From Kribbibacterium absianum (lineage in GTDB: Bacteria > Actinomycetota > Coriobacteriia > Coriobacteriales > Atopobiaceae), in assembly GCF_030067705.1 (NCBI RefSeq), contig NZ_JASJEX010000002.1, forward strand, positions 248,001-312,000: 64,000 bases of DNA, read 5' to 3'. Under the pieces are notes generated by a model. It had not been told where the DNA came from. It was given only the letters and a program-made list of their open reading frames with translations, and did no database searches. Positions 34,757-45,813 of the stretch are shown in pieces. The position numbers were made by a program, and so were the translations under genes. Position 1 is the stretch's first letter, and every line of letters starts with the position of its first letter.

Positions 34757-36811
34757 ATGGCTGAGAAGGTCAAGAACGTCGTGCTCGTAGGCCAAGGTGG
34801 CGTCGGGAAGACGATGGTGGCCGAGGCCATGCTGCATCTTTCCGGCGCGACCAACCGCCTTGGCGGGCACTCGGGCACCAAGCCCACGCTCGACTACGAC
34901 CCCGAGGAGGAGAAGCGCTCCTTCTCGATCAAGCTCTCCACTGCGCCGGTCACCTGGAACGGCTGCCGCCTCAACGTGATCGACGCCCCCTGCTACCCGG
35001 ACTTTGTGGGCGACGCCTATAGCGCGCTCGCCGCCTGCGAGACGGCCATCTTCGTGACCGACGCCGCAGCGGGCCCCCAGTCCACCACCATTCGCCTGTG
35101 GTACGCCGCCGAGGAGCTGTCCCTCGCGCGCGCCGTCTTCGTGAACCGCATCGACCGCTCCGAGGTCCCCTACGAGGACACCCTCGCCGAGCTCACCGAG
35201 CGCTTTGGCAGCCGTCTGGCCCCCGTCACGCTGCCCATGGGCACCGGCGCGGCGTTCGACGGCATCATCGACGTCATCCGCATGCAGGGGCGCCGTCTGG
35301 GCGCCGACGGAAAGGCCGAGGTCTTCGACCTGCCGGAGGAGTACACCGAGCAGGCCCAGGAGGCCCGTGACGCCATCGTGGACCTCGTGGTGGAGGCCGA
35401 CGACGACCTCATGATGAAGTACCTGGAGGGCGAGACCCTCACCACCGAGGAGATCGAGGGGCTGCTCGGCAAGGCCATCGCCGAGCGCATCTTTGTGCCG
35501 GTCTTCGCGGGCGTGGCCGTGCGCGAGGAGGGCATCGTCTCGCTGCTCGACGACATCGTGGCCTACTTCCCCGGCCCGGACACCTACGGCAAGGTGCCTC
35601 TGGTGAACGGCGAGCAGCTGGACGTGGACCCGGACGACGACCGCCCGGTGGCCTTTGTCTTCAAGATCCTCAACGACCCGCAGCAGGGTCGCATCGCCTT
35701 CATCAAGGTCCTCACCGGCACCATCACCTCGGGCACCGAGCTCACCAACGGCCGCACCCGCAAGTCCGAGCGCCTGAACCACCTGTACCGCGCCATGGGC
35801 CGCGACTTCACCGAGGTCAAGGGCGCCGAGGCCGGCGACATCATCGTGGTGCCCAAGCTGGAGGCCCAGACCGGCGACACGCTCTCCGCCACCGGCAAGG
35901 TGGAGGCCGCCGCGTTCCGCTTCCCCAACAGCCTGTACCGCATCGCCATCGAGGCCGACCAGCGCGGCACCGAGGACAAGCTCTACACCTTCCTTGAGAA
36001 GATGGCCGACGCCGACCCCACCCTCAAGATCGAGCGCGACGAGGACACCGGCCAGACGGTGATCTCCGCCATCGGCGAGGCGCAGGTCTCGGTGCTGCTC
36101 GACCGCCTGGAGAGCCGCGCCAACGTGAGCGCCCACACGGTGCCCCTGCGCATCCCGTACCGCGAGACCATCCGCCGCACCGCCACCGGCCACGGCCGTC
36201 ACAAGAAGCAGACGGGCGGCGCCGGGCAGTTCGCCGACGTGCGCATGCGCATCGAGCCCAACCCGGGCGGCGGCTACGAGTTCCTCGACGAGGTCGTGGG
36301 CGGCACGGTGCCCCGCGGCTTCATCCCCGCGGTGGACAAGGGCGCGCAGGAGACCATGCGCGAGGGCGTGCTGGCCGGCTACCCGATGATCGACGTGAAG
36401 GTGGCCCTCTACGACGGCCAGTACCACCCGGTGGACTCCAACGAGATGGCGTTCCGCACCGCCGCGCGCCTGGGCTTCCAGGACGCGGTGTCCCAGGCCG
36501 AGGCCGTGCTGCTGGAGCCGATGGCCAAGCTGGTGATCACGGTGCCCGAGAGCTACGCCGGCTCCGTGATGGGCGACATCTCGGCGAGCCGCGGCCGCGT
36601 GGAGGGCATGGACACCACGGACAAGGGCGAGGTCCGCGTGCAGGCCACCGCGCCGTACGCCGAGGTGGTGGACTACGCCACGCGCCTGCGCTCGCTCTCC
36701 CGCGGCACCGGTGAGTACACCATCGAGGTGGAGGGCTACGAGCAGGTCCCGCACGACGTGCAGGAGAAGCTGGCGAAGGAGTACCAGGAGCGTCGCGCCC
36801 AGGGCAAGTAA
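34757..36811 (+). CDS. EF-G-like translational GTPase (FusA2-type paralogue)
   Basis: This 684-residue protein has the EF-G layout: G domain with GQGGVGKT (12-19), domain II, III, IV and V. The switch II motif, DTPGHVDF in canonical EF-G, reads DAPCYPDF (76-83), so the catalytic histidine is a tyrosine, and the G4 motif is VNRIDRS. It therefore looks like the EF-G-like paralogue found in actinobacteria and is probably a ribosome-binding factor rather than the housekeeping translocase. AAGGAGG precedes the ATG at 34757. Monocistronic. Confidence 0.88.
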   Translation: MAEKVKNVVLVGQGGVGKTMVAEAMLHLSGATNRLGGHSGTKPTLDYDPEEEKRSFSIKLSTAPVTWNGCRLNVIDAPCYPDFVGDAYSALAACETAIFVTDAAAGPQSTTIRLWYAAEELSLARAVFVNRIDRSEVPYEDTLAELTERFGSRLAPVTLPMGTGAAFDGIIDVIRMQGRRLGADGKAEVFDLPEEYTEQAQEARDAIVDLVVEADDDLMMKYLEGETLTTEEIEGLLGKAIAERIFVPVFAGVAVREEGIVSLLDDIVAYFPGPDTYGKVPLVNGEQLDVDPDDDRPVAFVFKILNDPQQGRIAFIKVLTGTITSGTELTNGRTRKSERLNHLYRAMGRDFTEVKGAEAGDIIVVPKLEAQTGDTLSATGKVEAAAFRFPNSLYRIAIEADQRGTEDKLYTFLEKMADADPTLKIERDEDTGQTVISAIGEAQVSVLLDRLESRANVSAHTVPLRIPYRETIRRTATGHGRHKKQTGGAGQFADVRMRIEPNPGGGYEFLDEVVGGTVPRGFIPAVDKGAQETMREGVLAGYPMIDVKVALYDGQYHPVDSNEMAFRTAARLGFQDAVSQAEAVLLEPMAKLVITVPESYAGSVMGDISASRGRVEGMDTTDKGEVRVQATAPYAEVVDYATRLRSLSRGTGEYTIEVEGYEQVPHDVQEKLAKEYQERRAQGK

Positions 36812-36866
36812 CGGGCGACGCGGGCATTCCGTGCCGCAGCTTCCTTTTCGAACTGAAGCGCTGGAA

Positions 36867-36905
36867 GGCGCCCTCGGAGGCCTGAGGCCACCGGGGGCGT
36901 CTTTT
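36867..36905 (+). terminator. Terminator of the EF-G-like gene
   Basis: A 16-bp stem with G-U pairs (GGCGCCCTCGGAGGCC and its partner 36886-36901) is followed by TTTTCC. Confidence 0.75.
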
Positions 36906-37059
36906 CCGCCGCCGATCCCGTGCGCCGAATGCGGAATTCGCCCCTGCAGGCTCGTGGCGAGCGGGGCGCCCGTGACGGGCAGATAGCGGGAACTCGGGAA
37001 GGCGCTAGTGGTTATACAGCCGTTTACATTCCAGCGAAGCTTTCACAGCCTTTTACTGT

Positions 37060-37093
37060 CGGCCTAAAGCGTCGGTGGCGACGCTTTGGGCCG
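37060..37093 (+). promoter_or_regulatory. Long hairpin upstream of the giant surface gene
   Basis: A 15-bp stem (one G-U pair) with a GTGG loop. It has no T-run, so it may be an mRNA leader fold or a protein-binding site rather than a terminator. Confidence 0.4.
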
Positions 37094-37223
37094 GTGCGTT
37101 GTTTGCGCCCCTCATGCCCTGCGCAATCCGAAAGCGCGGGAGGGTGCCCTTGGGTTCTCAGACGACCAGGGGTGGGTTTTCGTGCGCTGAAGGGGATAAC
37201 GGCAGTGCCGAAATCCGGTTCTA

Positions 37224-37263
37224 GTTGAGTTCAACCTGCTGGTTATGGTTGATTTCAGCCTGC
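37224..37263. repeat. Tandem 16-base direct repeats, 24-base period
   Basis: GTTGAgTTCAaCCTGC (37224-37239) and GTTGAtTTCAgCCTGC (37248-37263) differ at two of 16 positions. The spacing of two helical turns fits dimeric regulator binding upstream of the giant surface gene. Confidence 0.4.
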
Positions 37264-37346
37264 CAATGTCAGAAACTGGCAGAACGCATCAGTGTCCAAA
37301 TGACTGTCTCTGCTGTTGATTGCACCCTAACTGGAGGAGAGAGGGC

Positions 37347-40300
37347 ATGGAGAGAAGCCGCATGTCCCGGACCGCAGGAGCCCACAAAAACCGCATGGGG
37401 GGGTCGCTCACCGCTAGCCCTTCTTGGGGTGCTGCTGGCTGTGACCCTTGTTGCCGTAGTGGCTTTGGGATCCCGTAACGCGCAAGCAGACACGGGGGAC
37501 CCCACGTGGACGGCCGACCCGTCGACGGCGGGCGACTACACCACCATCCTCGGCGATGACACGCCAATGAACGGCCGCTACGCCGGTCGCGTGTGGACCG
37601 ACAAGTCCGTTGAGACGGACCAGACGAACGGTGTTTTCAAAACCACGTTTAGTGCCTTGGGCTCCTCGCGCGTGATCAACTCGAGCATCCGGAACCCGCT
37701 GGACGTGGTGTTCATCGTGGACGTGTCGGGATCCATGGATCAGGACGGTAACGGACGCATTCAGGCGGCCACCGAGGCGCTCAATACTGCTGTGGGTCAG
37801 CTTATGAAGAGCAACCAGCACAACCGGGTGGCTGTGACCACGTTTGCTCGCTCGGATGGCAACAACACCAAGACCTTGATGCCCCTGGGACACTACAAGG
37901 CAAGCAATGGAGAAGAGATTAGCAAAGACAATGCTGCCTTCTCATATTCCCGCAATGGTAGCTTGAGTATCACGGCGCGAAATGCCAACAACCAGCTGGT
38001 CACCGGGAGTTCCTCTGTGACAGGTGGCACGAACACGCAGTATGGCATTTACGAGGGAATGCAGATTCTCGCAAATGTTTCCGACACCAAGCTTGCTGTT
38101 GGCACCACGGAGCTTCAGCGCATTCCGGCTGTGGTGCTCCTGACCGACGGCGCTCCAACCTTTTCGATCGATGAAGGGGACTGGTGGAATCTTGCTGGCC
38201 ATTCTCCCGATCAAGTAGGCCCTGGTAGCAATCCCTATTACGGCAATGGCATGCTCGCAATGATGGAGGCCTCCTACTGGAAACAGCAGATAAGCAATCA
38301 CTATGGCGTGGCTGGGTCCAAGTATGACACTCAGATGTTCACAGTGCGTGTTGGCAGCCTTTCTGGTAACAATCTTTATCTCGCCAATGTGACTCTCGAT
38401 CCAAATCAGTATCTTTCCACAAACAACACCATGTCGAACTCCATTAGAAATGCTTGGAGCGACTATATCAATAAAAGAACAACCACCGTTCAGGTTAACG
38501 ACTCACGTTGGGAAACCAATGAAATAACCCTCAACCATCCCACCAGCGACGACATCACCAGCCTCTACTACGCCGACGGTGCCTACACCGCAGGTACTGA
38601 CGACCTCGGCGGTGTGTTCGCGAACATCATCCAGCGTCTCCAGAACACTGCTTTCAACCCGGTGACCGACACCCTGGGCGAGGGCATGACGCCCCTCACC
38701 TACGAAGACCCCATCGGCGAGTACATGGAGGTCAAGGGGGTCACCTCCGTGGAACTCTTTGGTGAGGTCTACGACGAAGACGATGGCGTGACCTATGACA
38801 GCGCTACTGGTACCGTTTCGCTGCCCAATATCTCTCTCGAGCACCCGGTGTACAAGACTCCGTTCAGCCTCTCCGACATCGCAATCAAGGTGACGGAGAA
38901 GGACGGCAAGCAGACACTTACCTGCACGGTGCCTGCCAACGTGCTCCCGGTGCGCGTGGAGACCATCGACCTCGACGAGAATGACGATCAGACAAACTTC
39001 ACCTCCAACCGCGACACCAACGATGCGCGGCCCCTGCGGCTCAACTACACGGTGGGCTTTAGTTCGGATGTGCTCACTGATGGCAAGGTCGACCTCTCCA
39101 AAGTGAGCGCCGATTACAAGGTCAAGCATCGTCAGAAGGATGGCAGCATCGCCTTCTACAGCAACATCTATAACTCCGCGAACGTGCAAGACGACAAGAC
39201 TGCCGGCGCTGCCACTGCCACTTTCGCCCCGAGCAAGGACAACCGGTTCTATTACTTCCAGGCCAACCGGCCTATCTACGCCAGCGGCACTGAAGGCGTT
39301 CTGGGTAAGGATGGCAGCGTGCCCGACCAGCCCCTCACTACGCTCGACGGATGGGACGATAAGGCGACCTACTACCTCGTCATCGACTACCACGAACTGG
39401 GCGCCGAGCAGCAGGTGAACCGCGTTGTGGCCCGTACCGGCGCCGAGCTTAAGAAATCCGTGGAAGTCAAAGGCGGTCAGGTCGTCACGAAGGTCCACTC
39501 CCCACGCCTGGGCAACACCCATCACTTCACGCAGGAGAAGGAAGCGGCGGGGACTATTTCTGCCAATCCGACTGGTACCGCAGCTCTGGCGTACGCTCCC
39601 ACTTATCAGACCAGTGAGGGGACCACTGACTATCAGATCAAGGCCTACCTGGGCAACAACGGTCGTGTGACCGTGCCCACCACCGGCTTCTCGGTGAGGA
39701 AGGCCCTGACCATGGCCAATGGTCTTACCGCCCCCGACCAGGCCTTTGACTTCAACCTCGCCGTCACGAACGGTACCCCGGGCGATGTGGTCGTGACCCA
39801 AGCCGACGGTACCTCCAAGACGCTCACTCCCACTTGGAACAGCGGCACGACGACCGTCCAGCTCAAGGCCGGCGAGACCGTCTTTGTGGAGACGAGCCCC
39901 GGAGCGCACTGGACCGTGACCGAGACCGCACCTAATACCGAGGGCTTTAGCTTCGAGAAGGCCGAAGGCTCCTCCGGCACCGTCACCGTTGACCAGAATA
40001 CTCGGAGCGCCGAGGGCAACGCCACGGCCGGCGAGGTCCTGACAGCCATCTACACCAACAGCTACACCCCCGAGGTGGAGTGGCCCTCCGCTGACGGAAG
40101 CATTCCCTTTACCAAGACCATGACGGGCAACCTGGCCAGCGGTCAGCCCCGCGGCTTCGTGGCCGGTGACAGCTTTACCTTTACCCTTGAGGCCAACGAG
40201 GGCTCACCGCTGCCCCGGGCCAAAGACGGCGACGTGACCTTTGAGGTCAACGCCGTGGCGGTGAAGGTGACTGCGGTGAATACCGACGGAACCTTCAACC

Positions 40301-43300
40301 TCGAGATCACCACCCAGGGGGAGGGTCATTCCGTGACCACCACCCGGGCCAACGCGGGCTCCTTTGGCGCCGCCTTCTCGCCCATCGTCTTCGACGCCCC
40401 GGGCACCTATACCTACACCCTCTCCGAGGCCCGTGCGACGGCTAGCAACGTGGTGGCCGGCGTCACCTACGATGGTGCCAAGTACACCTACATGGTGACC
40501 GTTGCCGTCGATGAGACTGACAGGACCCAGCTCAAGGTGACCCACGTCCAGACTGACGTGGCCAACGCCACCGACCCCAACGCGACCGCTCCTTCTGTAG
40601 CCGATGACGGTAGGGTGGGCCCGGCAGCCTTCACCAACAGCTACGACACCGACAAGGTGGTGCGCCGCTTTGGCGTGAAGAAGACCCTGTCTGGCAAGCC
40701 CCTCGAGGCCGGCGCCTTCAGCTTTAAGGTGGAGGCCCAGGGCGCCCACGCCCTCACTGCCGGCGAGGTGGCGGACCTGACCGGCGGCGTGCCCAGCAAC
40801 GAGCAGGCTGCCGATTACGGCTACGCCGAAGACTCGACCCAGCCCATGCCCGCCAGCGACACCGCCACCAACAACGCGAGCGGCGCGGTGGACTTTGACG
40901 GCATCGCCTTCACTGCCGCTGACGCCAGTCTGGCCGGCGACGCCACGGATACGGACGCCCTCTCTCGCGGTGTGGTCTACAAGTACCAGGTGAGCGAGGT
41001 TGTGCCCGGGGATGCCGTCAGCAACGTCAAGGATGGTGTCACCTACGACACCACGCACCATGACGTCTACGTCTATTGCCACGTGGAGACCATCGGCGGC
41101 GTCTCTACCGTGCGCTCCCAGGTGATTTACGGTCACGACCACGGCACCCCTGACCCGACGACAGGTGTGGGCGTGATTCCTTTCAGCAACAGCTACGAGG
41201 CGCAGGGCGCAGCCACCATCTCCGGCACCAAGACCATCGATGGTCGCACTTTCCGTGAAGGCGACACCTTCACTTTCACCCTCTCCGAAGTGGTGAACGG
41301 CGTGGAGGGCCAGCCCATCCTGACAAAGGAGGTCCCCGACGGCCAGGCGGACAAGAACTCCCTCGATTTCTCCTTCGACCCCATTGCCTACAGCCAGGCC
41401 GGCACCCACACCTATCGCGTGCGCGAGGTCACTCCGGCTGCCGCTGACCGTCTGTCTAACATGACCTACGACACCACCGTGCGCACCGTGACCGTGACGG
41501 CTACGGACAACGGCAACGGAATCATTGAAACCGCCGTGGACTACGGCCAAGGGGCAATAGCAGCCGCGTTCACCAACACCTACACGCCTCCCACGGCCAC
41601 GGTCTCGCTGACGGGCACCAAGACCTTCAACGGCCCCATCACGGCTCAGGCTTTTGACTTCTCCACCTACCAGACCGGAGCAGACTTTGCGACCGCTGGC
41701 GTGACCCCTTCCCCCACGTGGGTGAACGCGAGCACTAACACCAGCACCAGCGACGACGGCTCCGTGACCTCCACGGCCACTATCCCGTCGCTGCTGCCGC
41801 AGGCGAGCTACGGTCCCGGTGACTACTACTTCGTGATCGCGGAGAACCGGGATCCCGATGACAACGGCGTCGCCTACGACGAGACCCAGTATCGGGTGCA
41901 CCTCAAGGTGGTCGACAACTTTGACGGCACTGCCACGCCAACGCTGACGATCAAGAAGGTGGTCAACGGCACCGAGACCGATTGGAACGCCGAGACACCG
42001 CTGGCCTTCTCCAACACGTACAACGGCAACACCCAATCCACCGCCAACCTCTCCAAAGTGACCCTGAACACCACTGTCCCGGGCGGCGGCTACCAGTTTG
42101 AGCTGCGAATCGAGCGCCTGAACGCCGATGGCACGTTCGACAGGCTCGCCAAGGCCGGCGAGGCTCATATGACCGACGTCACGGCGGATGACGACGGGGT
42201 CTATCGCGGCTCCAGTGCGGCGGACGGCTCTCTGCCTTTTGGCCAGATCGTCTTCCAGCAGCCGGGCACCTATCGCACCTCGCTCAAAGAGATTGTGCCT
42301 GAAGGCGACCGCATCCAGCTGCCCAACAACCACGTCATCGTGAACGACGTGGCCTACGACACGCAGGAAGCCACGCGCACCTACCAGGTGACTCGCTCGG
42401 GTCTCGGCCTCACCGTGAACGTCGCCGACTCCAACGGGTTCAACTTCGTCAACGATGGCGGCATTCCTGTGTCGAAGATCGTCACGGCCGAGGGCATGGA
42501 CGAGAGCCTGATGCCCAAGGGCCCGTTCACCTTCACGGTGAGCGGCCTCGGCGAGGATCAGAGCGCCTACCTGGTGCTTGACGGCAAAGTGACGACCCTC
42601 GCCAACGAGTCGACGTTCCAGCTTTCTGCCAACCAGACGGGCCGCATCTACGGCCTTGGCCAGGGTGGCTCGGTCAAGCTGACCGAGGAGAAGAAGGACG
42701 GCTTCACGCCGAAGGCCGCCGAGCTGACCGCTTCTGCTGTCACCGGTGGTGCGGCCACGCCTGTCGCCTTCGAGAACCAGTACGAGTCCAAGGGTTCCAT
42801 CGACCCGGAGGCGGCCGCGAAGCTCAACGTGACCAAGACCCTCACGGGCCGCCACATGACGGCCGGTCAGTTCACCTTCACGGTGGCGCCTGCTGACGAG
42901 GCCTCCCGCGCCAGGCTGGCGGCCACCGAACTCAAGAGCCAGGCTGCCGATACTGGCAAGGCCGCTGCTGCCGTGACCGACGACGGCAAGACGCTCGCCG
43001 ACCTCTTGGGCGCCGTGAAATTCACCCAGGCCGATGCCGGCAAGACCTTCACGTGGAAGGTGACCGAGAACGTCCCGCAGACCGGTGTTCCGGCTGGCTA
43101 CGCCTACGACGACTCCGAGTTCACCATCAAGGTTGCGGTGAAGGACAACGGCAACGGCACCCTCACTGCCACGCCTTCCGTCACCAAGGGCGACGAGGCC
43201 GCTGACGCCATCGGCTTCACCAACCGCTACAGCGCCGCTAGCGCCCAGGCCACGCTCCAGGTGTCCAAGGTGCTCACGGGCCGTGCGTTCGCTGCTGGGG

Positions 43301-45813
43301 AGCGCTTCTCCTTCGGTCTTGAGGCCATCGACGGGGCGCCCATGCCTGCCGCCGGCGGTGAGGTGACCTCCGTCGACACGAACCTCGGCCAGGCCTCCTT
43401 CGGCTCCATCACCTACACCCAGCCGGGCACCTACCGTTATCGCATCACGGAGCGCGCAGGCAATGCGCCAGGTGTGACCTACGACCCCACCGTGTTCATC
43501 GCGACCGTCACGGTGAGCGACACTGGCGAGGGACGCCTGACCGCCACGGTGACGTACAACGTCGAGAATGGCGCCACTGTCACCATCCCGTCGTTCACCA
43601 ACCGCTACAACTCGAGCGGCTCGATGAACGGTGTGGCCTCGGTGAACGTCTTCAAGACCCTCGCCGGGCGCCCGATGGACGCGAAGCAGTTCTCCTTCAC
43701 GGTGACGCCTGCCGATGACGCCTCGGCCGCGAAGGTGCCCACGCAGACCCTCTATTCGCTGGCCGCGGACGCGGGCAAGCGGGAGGCGGCCGAAACCGCG
43801 GACGATCAGCTGCTCTCCGAGGTCTTCTCCAAGGTGACCTTCACGGAGGCCGACGCCGGCAAGACCTTCGCCTGGACCGTTGCGGAGAACGCTCCGGCCG
43901 AGGACGGCTCCGGCTACACCTACGACCGCGCCACCCACAGGGTGGAGATCAAGGTGACCGACGACGGCAAGGGCACGCTCACGGCGCAGACCCTCGTTGA
44001 CGACGCCGTGGTAGACGGCGGCCATGCGGCGCTTGTCTTCAACAACGCTTACCAGGCCTCGAGCAACCCTGACGCGGCTGAGGGCTCTGGCCGCGTGACC
44101 ACCACCAAGACCCTGCTCAACCGCGACCTGGCGGCCGGCGAGTTCGCGTTCGTGATGCGTGACGCCAAGGGTGCCGAGGTGGCTCGGGCCACCAACGGCG
44201 CCGACGGCACCGTTGACTTCGGTGCGCGGACCTACACCTCGTCCCAGGCTCAGGACGACGTGGCGGCCGGTGTGGCCACGATGAGTCGCGTGGACGGCAA
44301 GCCCGTCTATCACTACACCTACACGCTGGTGGAGGACGTTTCCGCTCTGCCCGAGAACGTGACGGCGCAGCAAGCGGTCGTCTCGGTGACCGTGAACGTG
44401 ACCGACAACGGCGACGGCACCATGACCTGCGACGTGGTGTGGCCGCAAAACGGGCAGACCGGCTTCGTGAACGCCTATGAGGCCGACCCGGTGCAGGTGC
44501 AGGTGGCTGGCACCAAGGTCGTGGCCGCTCCTAGCGGCCTCTCGGTGCCCGACGGCATGGCCGGCGCCTTCACGTTCACGCTGGCCGACGAGGGCGGCCA
44601 GGTGATCCGCACCGCCACCAACGACGCCTCCGGCACCGTGGCCTTCGATCCGATCTCCTACACCCAGGAGGACCTCGCCGGTGCGACCGAGCGCACCTTC
44701 ACCTACACGGTGACCGAGGCGGGCTCCGTGCCCGGCGTCAGCAACGAGGGCGGCTCCAAGACGGTGCAGGTGCTTGTGACCCAGGGCGCGGACGGGCACC
44801 TTTCCGCCCGCATGGTGGGCGAGCCCTTCTCGTTCACCAACACCTACGGGGTCGAGGAACTGACCAGCTCGGTGACCGACCAGGTGAGCGTCACCAAGGT
44901 CCTGAGCGGCCGCGCTCTGCAGGCCGGGGAGTTCCGCTTCGAGCTGGTCGACCCTGACAGCGGCAACGTTGTGGCCACGGGCACCAACGAGGCAGACGGG
45001 CGCGTGACCCTCTCGGCCGTGACCTACACCGAGCCCGGCGAGCACGCGTACGAGCTGCGCGAGGTTGCGGGCGACGCGACCGGCGTCACCTACGACAAGC
45101 GTCTGGCCACAGTGACCACCCGGGTGACCGACAACGGCAAGGGCAAGCTCGAGGCCGTGCACAGCGTCTCCGGTGGCAAGGCCGTCTTTGAGAACACCTT
45201 CACACCGGTGCCCTATGTGGACCCGGCCTTCGGTGTGGGCGCCAAGAAGGTCCTCATGGGTCGCGACTGGACCGACGGCGACGCCTTCACCTTTGTGGCC
45301 GAGGCGGAGACCGAGGGCGCGCCCATGCCCGATCCCGTCCAAGTGGTCGCCACCAAGGACGCCCCGATGGGCACGTTCGGCGCGGTGACCTTCACCCAGC
45401 CGGGCACGTACAGCTACCTGGTGCGCGAGTCGGCCGGTGACGAGAAGGGCATGACCTACTCCAAGGCGCTCTATCGGGTGACCTACACAATCGCCCGCGA
45501 CGAGGCCACCGGCGAGCTTTCCGGCTCGAAGACCGTGACGCTGCTGAAGGCCCATGACGGCTCCGAGGCCACGGGCAACGCGGACGTCATGGAGTTCGTG
45601 AACACGTACGTGAAGCCCACAGAGCCGGTCGTGCCTGACAAGCCCACCGGGCCTGACAAGCCGGCCAATCCGAGCAAGCCCAAGCCGGTCTGGAGCATCC
45701 TGCCCGAGACCGGGGACGCCCTCGCGGCCCTGGCGCCGTGGCTGGGGGCCGGCGGCGGTGTCGCAGCTCTGGCTGCCGTGGCCGTGCTGCGCGGCGGTCG
45801 GCGGAAGAAGTAG
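37347..45813 (+). CDS. Giant LPXTG surface protein: VWA domain and ~14 pilin-type repeats, poly-G frame switch
   Basis: The ATG at 37347 (GGAGGAGAGAGGGC upstream) reads MERSRMSRTAGAHKNRMGG, then meets G7 at 37397-37403. The signal peptide (LALLGVLLAVTLVAVVALGS, cut after AQA) and ~2,800 codons lie in the next frame, reached if the run were G6. So as read the gene is OFF or needs slippage; the upstream frame-matched start has no ribosome-binding site. Next come a VWA domain (MIDAS DVSGS) at residues ~115-290 and about 14 FctA/Spy0128-like repeats. Each repeat has VxKTLTGR, an E near the VTEN motif and FTNxY, which can form Lys-Asn isopeptides. The C-terminus has LPETG (45700-45714), a hydrophobic segment and basic RRKK. 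Probable adhesin or pilus tip. Confidence 0.85.
37397..37403 (+). repeat. Poly-G tract (G7) between start codon and signal peptide
   Basis: Seven Gs follow AT of the in-frame ATG at 37395. With six the start-codon frame joins the signal-peptide frame; with seven it does not. The tract is a probable slipped-strand switch, although a sequencing-length error is possible. Confidence 0.7.

Follow-up and report, generated by a model that had tools for sequence, protein, structure and literature searches.

In pathogenic Neisseria, pilC is phase-variable and carries a poly-G tract in the region encoding its leader peptide. The opa genes switch through CTCTT repeats, also in the leader-peptide region (PMC3960869). 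In Bifidobacterium breve UCC2003, G-tracts near the 5' end split the giant LPXTG pilin genes bbr_0113a/b and bbr_1889a/b in two; the short upstream ORF is translated and the downstream ORF has no start (PMC9187656). Populations with G10-G12 were measured in that organism, the in-frame variants formed pili and, in culture, G10 slipped much less than G11 (PMC9187656). In Gardnerella, many variable homopolymers are tied to LPXTG, Rib and GA-module surface proteins, and one tract varied from colony to colony (PMC11287997). We searched the literature on phase variation in Collinsella, Olsenella and Atopobiaceae and found no report of such a device, and no paper was found that reports such a switch in the Coriobacteriales.

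Here we analysed a 64,000-nucleotide stretch of Kribbibacterium DNA (the window, to which all positions refer) that contains a G7 tract at the start of a giant adhesin gene (Table 1). We consider it likely that this G7 is a slipped-strand phase-variation switch for translation of the adhesin, and that the sequenced state is OFF. The duplex formed with the anti-Shine-Dalgarno sequence ahead of the ATG at 37347 has an energy of -9.3 kcal/mol, which is in the top 3.5% among all + strand ATGs of the window. This ATG encodes MERSRMSRTAGAHKNRMGG in a frame of 43 codons with its stop at 37476-37478, and the basic n-region MERSRMSRTAGAHKNRM leads straight into G7, whose first G also belongs to an internal ATG at 37395. 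The signal-peptide core LALLGVLLAVTLVAVVALG (hydropathy 3.04 over 14 residues) is followed by the AQA site; its frame reads RSPLALLGVLLAVTLVAVVALGSRNAQA, cleaved before D, and stays open until 45813, some 2,770 codons beyond that site. When the tract is one base shorter or two bases longer, the ATG frame and the signal-peptide frame fuse as MERSRMSRTAGAHKNRMGGRSPLALLGVLLAVTLVAVVALGSRNAQA.

We looked for a Shine-Dalgarno site at every plausible start in the signal-peptide frame and found none. Duplex energies for the candidates were +0.2 kcal/mol (ATG 37300), -2.4 kcal/mol (TTG 37225) and -2.2 kcal/mol (TTG 37249), and the codon log-odds of 37225-37346 in this frame are very poor and very unlike the codons of the adhesin gene. 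A start within the signal-peptide frame itself was ruled out by these energies and log-odds. The locus thus has what is found in phase-variable genes, a homopolymer in the coding region near the start whose length sets the frame, with no alternative start after the tract or in the downstream frame. A preliminary description of this DNA had proposed a strong Shine-Dalgarno site, the ATG, a basic n-region and G7 in this arrangement, a normal signal peptide ending in AQA at G6, and a signal-peptide frame with no ribosome-binding site of its own. Every coordinate was confirmed from the sequence, translation gave the G6 joining, and the duplex energies bear out the last point.

Table 1. Features of the adhesin gene, its start region and the sortase gene (positions in the window).
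Feature	Position	Strand	Basis
Sortase, the sole one found in the genome	12123-12629	+	PF04203, one match above cut-off (whole genome)
Terminator-like hairpin between the upstream gene and the adhesin transcription unit	37057-37096	+	18-pair stem, T-rich tail
Shine-Dalgarno site GGAGGAGAGAGGG	37333-37345	+	Sequence; duplex energy with anti-Shine-Dalgarno
Short ORF as sequenced: start codon, basic n-region, out-of-frame tail	37347-37478	+	Translation
G7 tract, proposed slipping switch	37397-37403	+	Sequence; run-length count
Remaining n-region, hydrophobic core, AQA cleavage site	37405-37488	+	Translation; one frame off ATG 37347
Giant surface protein: VWA domain, 12 FctA (Spy0128-like) repeats, 2 DUF7601 domains	37489-45813	+	Pfam matches
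von Willebrand factor A (VWA) domain	37702-37971	+	PF00092, E=5e-7
LPETGD cell-wall sorting signal, hydrophobic stretch, RGGRRKK tail	45700-45810	+	Translation

The adhesin ORF runs for 2,801 codons without a stop, whereas its other two frames contain 110 and 79 stops, which indicates that the ORF is maintained. Its product has a signal peptide, a VWA domain, Spy0128-like isopeptide repeats and an LPXTG tail, as in wall-anchored adhesins of the VWA/FctA-repeat type, and would probably have an adhesive role. We found no relatives of the adhesin in the PDB by sequence, and a search of named genomes with its N-terminus gave no match. The terminator-like hairpin upstream points to a separate promoter for the gene. 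This hairpin is the only inverted repeat in 36700-37420, and an invertible promoter was ruled out on these grounds. The gene looks monocistronic, and the next + strand gene encodes a flavodiiron-type protein. No sortase gene adjoins the adhesin gene; the one match in the genome-wide PF04203 search lies 25 kb upstream and is presumed to be a housekeeping anchor enzyme rather than a pilus-cluster sortase. This distant enzyme would presumably anchor the adhesin to the wall.

The preliminary description had likened the locus to the pilus genes of bifidobacteria. The likeness holds for the giant LPXTG surface-protein gene, which a G-tract divides close to the 5' end: as in B. breve, the ribosome-binding site belongs to a short ORF that stops shortly past the tract, the downstream ORF lacks a start, and the two ORFs fuse at certain tract lengths only. 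It does not extend to the operon, since the B. breve tracts head pilus operons with additional pilins and a dedicated sortase, whereas the Kribbibacterium gene stands alone. The tract also differs, G7 here against G10-G12 with measured length heterogeneity there, as does the order, the Coriobacteriales. In pathogenic Neisseria, too, the repeat lies within the signal-peptide coding region and a frameshift sets translation ON or OFF, but these bacteria are Gram-negative, the proteins are unrelated and the opa repeat is a pentamer. Like Kribbibacterium, Gardnerella belongs to the Actinomycetota, and homopolymers of at least 8 are tied to surface-protein genes there; in the accessible part of that report, however, most tracts are upstream of genes and a position between n-region and h-region is not described (PMC11287997).

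Long runs of G or C are scarce in this genome (2.18 Mb in 7 contigs). The window has a G+C content of 66.6%, and a first-order Markov model predicts about 16 G/C runs of at least 7 in its 64 kb; the G7 tract is the only one. A chance G-run was ruled out, such runs being depleted in the window and thus avoided rather than common. The whole genome has about 28 runs of at least 7 on either strand, and G7 alone among these breaks the frame at a position flanked by a ribosome-binding site and its start codon on one side and a signal-peptide core on the other. The rough expectation for this coincidence is 0.06, assuming 200 signal-peptide genes. Two other places with G runs were noted in this genome. 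One is a ribosomal RNA contig (C6) with a run of masked bases and a G8 run inside the 16S gene; the other is a CRISPR-like array on contig C2 (438.8 and 442.7 kb; repeat GTCGCCCCTCGCATGAGGGGCGTGGGTTGAAAC), where two spacers contain a nearly identical G7 sequence.

We also searched 140 genomes of the family with the pattern GGAG-N(4-16)-ATG-N(0-30)-G8. This gave 64 sites in 50 genomes, compared with at most 24 windows in 14 genomes for a control in which the same pattern was read backwards. For most of the 64 sites, selected sites with exactly G7 and further sites in other Coriobacteriales families, we determined the tract length at which the ATG and the long downstream frame are connected. An automatic signal-peptide filter passed 28 genes, from which four were removed and to which one (L097) was added by eye. 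The four removed were L125, L130, L192 and L195, in which the downstream gene either encodes a housekeeping product or has, or could have, a separate start. Two more loci were kept out of the tally, L193, which resembled an orthologue but is probably decayed and has a stop directly behind the tract, and L194, where the reading breaks again further downstream. The resulting 25 genes of Coriobacteriales, that of the window included, share one anatomy: a Shine-Dalgarno site and start codon, a short and mostly basic n-region, the tract read as Gly-Gly-(Gly), and the hydrophobic core. The ORFs after the tract extend up to about 3,100 codons. Many products have LPXTG-like wall-sorting tails, and the domains found include VWA, FctA, SpaA, Cna_B, collagen-binding, Big, ChW, SLH, LRR_5 and MucBP; judged by sequence, they are plainly surface proteins.

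Among these 25 genes, which are partly interdependent (L095 and L098 form an orthologous pair, and L096 is similar to them), the sequenced tract leaves the reading in frame in eight, in need of -1 in eight, including the window gene, and in need of +1 in nine. A proportion of 8/25 in frame does not differ from the one-third of a freely slipping tract (binomial p = 1.0) and is far from the 95% of normal genes (p about 6e-17). This split is the pattern of freely slipping DNA and not that of normal genes or of a programmed frameshift. The mechanism is already known from B. breve, and what appears to be new is the scale of the device in the Coriobacteriales.

As a comparison, we looked for tracts of different length at the same locus. 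Kribbibacterium is represented by one genome and no other strains of the species were found; by PurF, at 64-70% identity, its nearest named relatives are species of Olsenella and Collinsella, which places it in the order Coriobacteriales, probably in the family Atopobiaceae. A length difference was seen at another locus: L095 (G10, OFF) and L098 (G8, ON) belong to two congeneric species and are near-identical in the DNA surrounding their starts (mean column identity 96%). The preliminary description had called the window gene phase-variable, with the sequenced state OFF, and had suggested checking related genomes for tract-length variants. The order-wide 8:8:9 split and this pair support the call, the pair showing such variation at a locus other than that of the window. 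Two VWA/FctA homologues of the window gene among the 25 are OFF, with G9 (L107) and G10 (L110). The start region of L029 resembles that of L110, of which it is an apparent orthologue; its tract is interrupted as GGGGGGTGGG and in frame, so that it looks like a locked-ON allele that should slip no longer easily. Tracts of G7 occur in both states, ON in L187 and OFF in L186 and L191, which puts G7 within the device's range of lengths. Tracts seem to come and go at the signal-peptide position, since most of the more distant VWA homologues lack one. The closest homologue of the adhesin, in genome G018 (57% identity), has a signal peptide with no poly-G. Deeper in the coding region of this homologue (L004/L143), ahead of the VWA domain, lies a G9, and the homology changes frame further along as if a stretch were deleted.

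In the mechanism that we propose, translation would initiate at ATG 37347, slippage in DNA replication would alter the G count, and the n-region would reach the hydrophobic core only at multiples of three (G6, G9). The joined frame would then yield a giant VWA/FctA adhesin that is exported and anchored to the wall. With G7 as sequenced, a dead-end peptide of 43 residues would be made and the adhesin would be OFF except for any low-level slippage. The case for G7 rests on its anatomy, the out-of-frame state, the absence of another start, the intact ORF and the comparative pattern; from these we infer that the tract slips in living cells and that slippage is reversible. Two observations speak against a switch, namely that G7 is short relative to the variable G10-G12 tracts of B. 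breve and that the G018 homologue and most of the more distant VWA homologues have no signal-peptide tract. Because G10 slipped much less than G11 in B. breve, the G7 tract may switch rarely.

Other explanations for the broken frame seem less probable to us. G runs can make both ribosomes and RNA polymerase slip, and programmed slippage of either kind would give a constant low protein level with no variation in the DNA. We regard this as very improbable and the least probable explanation of those weighed here. Shifts of 0, -1 and +1 are needed about equally, so no single shift explains the 25 genes, and a programmed ribosomal shift would need one direction; the DNA itself also differs in length between the near-identical L095 and L098. 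With some genes needing -1 and others +1, replication slippage is preferred to ribosomal slippage. It is also unlikely that the lineage carries a fixed frameshift, a former G6 having gained one G to leave a fresh pseudogene. Expansion of a G6 run by a single base is a common mutation and the single genome for the genus fits such a history, but the remaining 8.4-kb ORF is intact, many unrelated surface genes are affected at the same site with their frames evenly split, and the G7 tracts of two housekeeping genes (L192, D-Ala ligase-like, and L190, ABC transporter-like) stay in frame.

An assembly or sequencing error, masking a fixed G6 and a gene that is ON, ranks between these two and is quite unlikely. 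Homopolymers are error-prone, and in B. breve deep sequencing gave a main tract length other than that of the reference (PMC9187656). Against this, the position in the n-region fits a recurrent device and not a random error, and with an error a G6 run would still occupy the same slippery place. A phase-variable G7 tract sequenced in its OFF state is the reading that we prefer.

Poly-G tracts were also seen beside genes of other kinds. The homologous TetR-type-like regulator genes L209 and L219 have poly-G beside the start codon; one has an in-frame G10, the other an out-of-frame G9. In the orthologues L212 and L213, G16 and G12 directly follow MRIPA and both are in frame, but translation may in truth begin at a second Met downstream. 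A 35-codon leader ORF with G9-G10 is common to nine of the 31 genomes of the family's largest genus. In L101, L114 and L118 the leader stop adjoins the start of brxA, with brxB and brxC after it (BREX); in L102, L105, L106, L108, L109 and L117 it adjoins the start of a 1,086-codon SNF2-helicase gene with a type III methyltransferase after it, an HKD/SNF2 defence cluster. The leader is full length in seven of the nine and truncated through tract length in L106 and L108. It is possibly a phase-variable coupling device ahead of different anti-phage systems. On balance, we lean slightly towards the idea of a Coriobacteriales "phasome", in which G7-G10 tracts at the n/h boundary would switch many wall-anchored proteins independently and, in one genus, also leaders controlling swappable BREX and HKD/SNF2 plus type III methyltransferase systems.

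The order-wide set of genes is a more interesting result than the window locus. Annotation pipelines would give wrong starts to, or call as pseudogenes, about two thirds of such giant genes, and strain comparisons based on gene presence would overlook real variation. Frame statistics offer a simple route to listing such switches with genome sequences as the only input. The surface biology of Coriobacteriales, which are common in the gut and mouth, has been little studied. If these tracts switch, one clone would be a mixture of cells with different adhesins.
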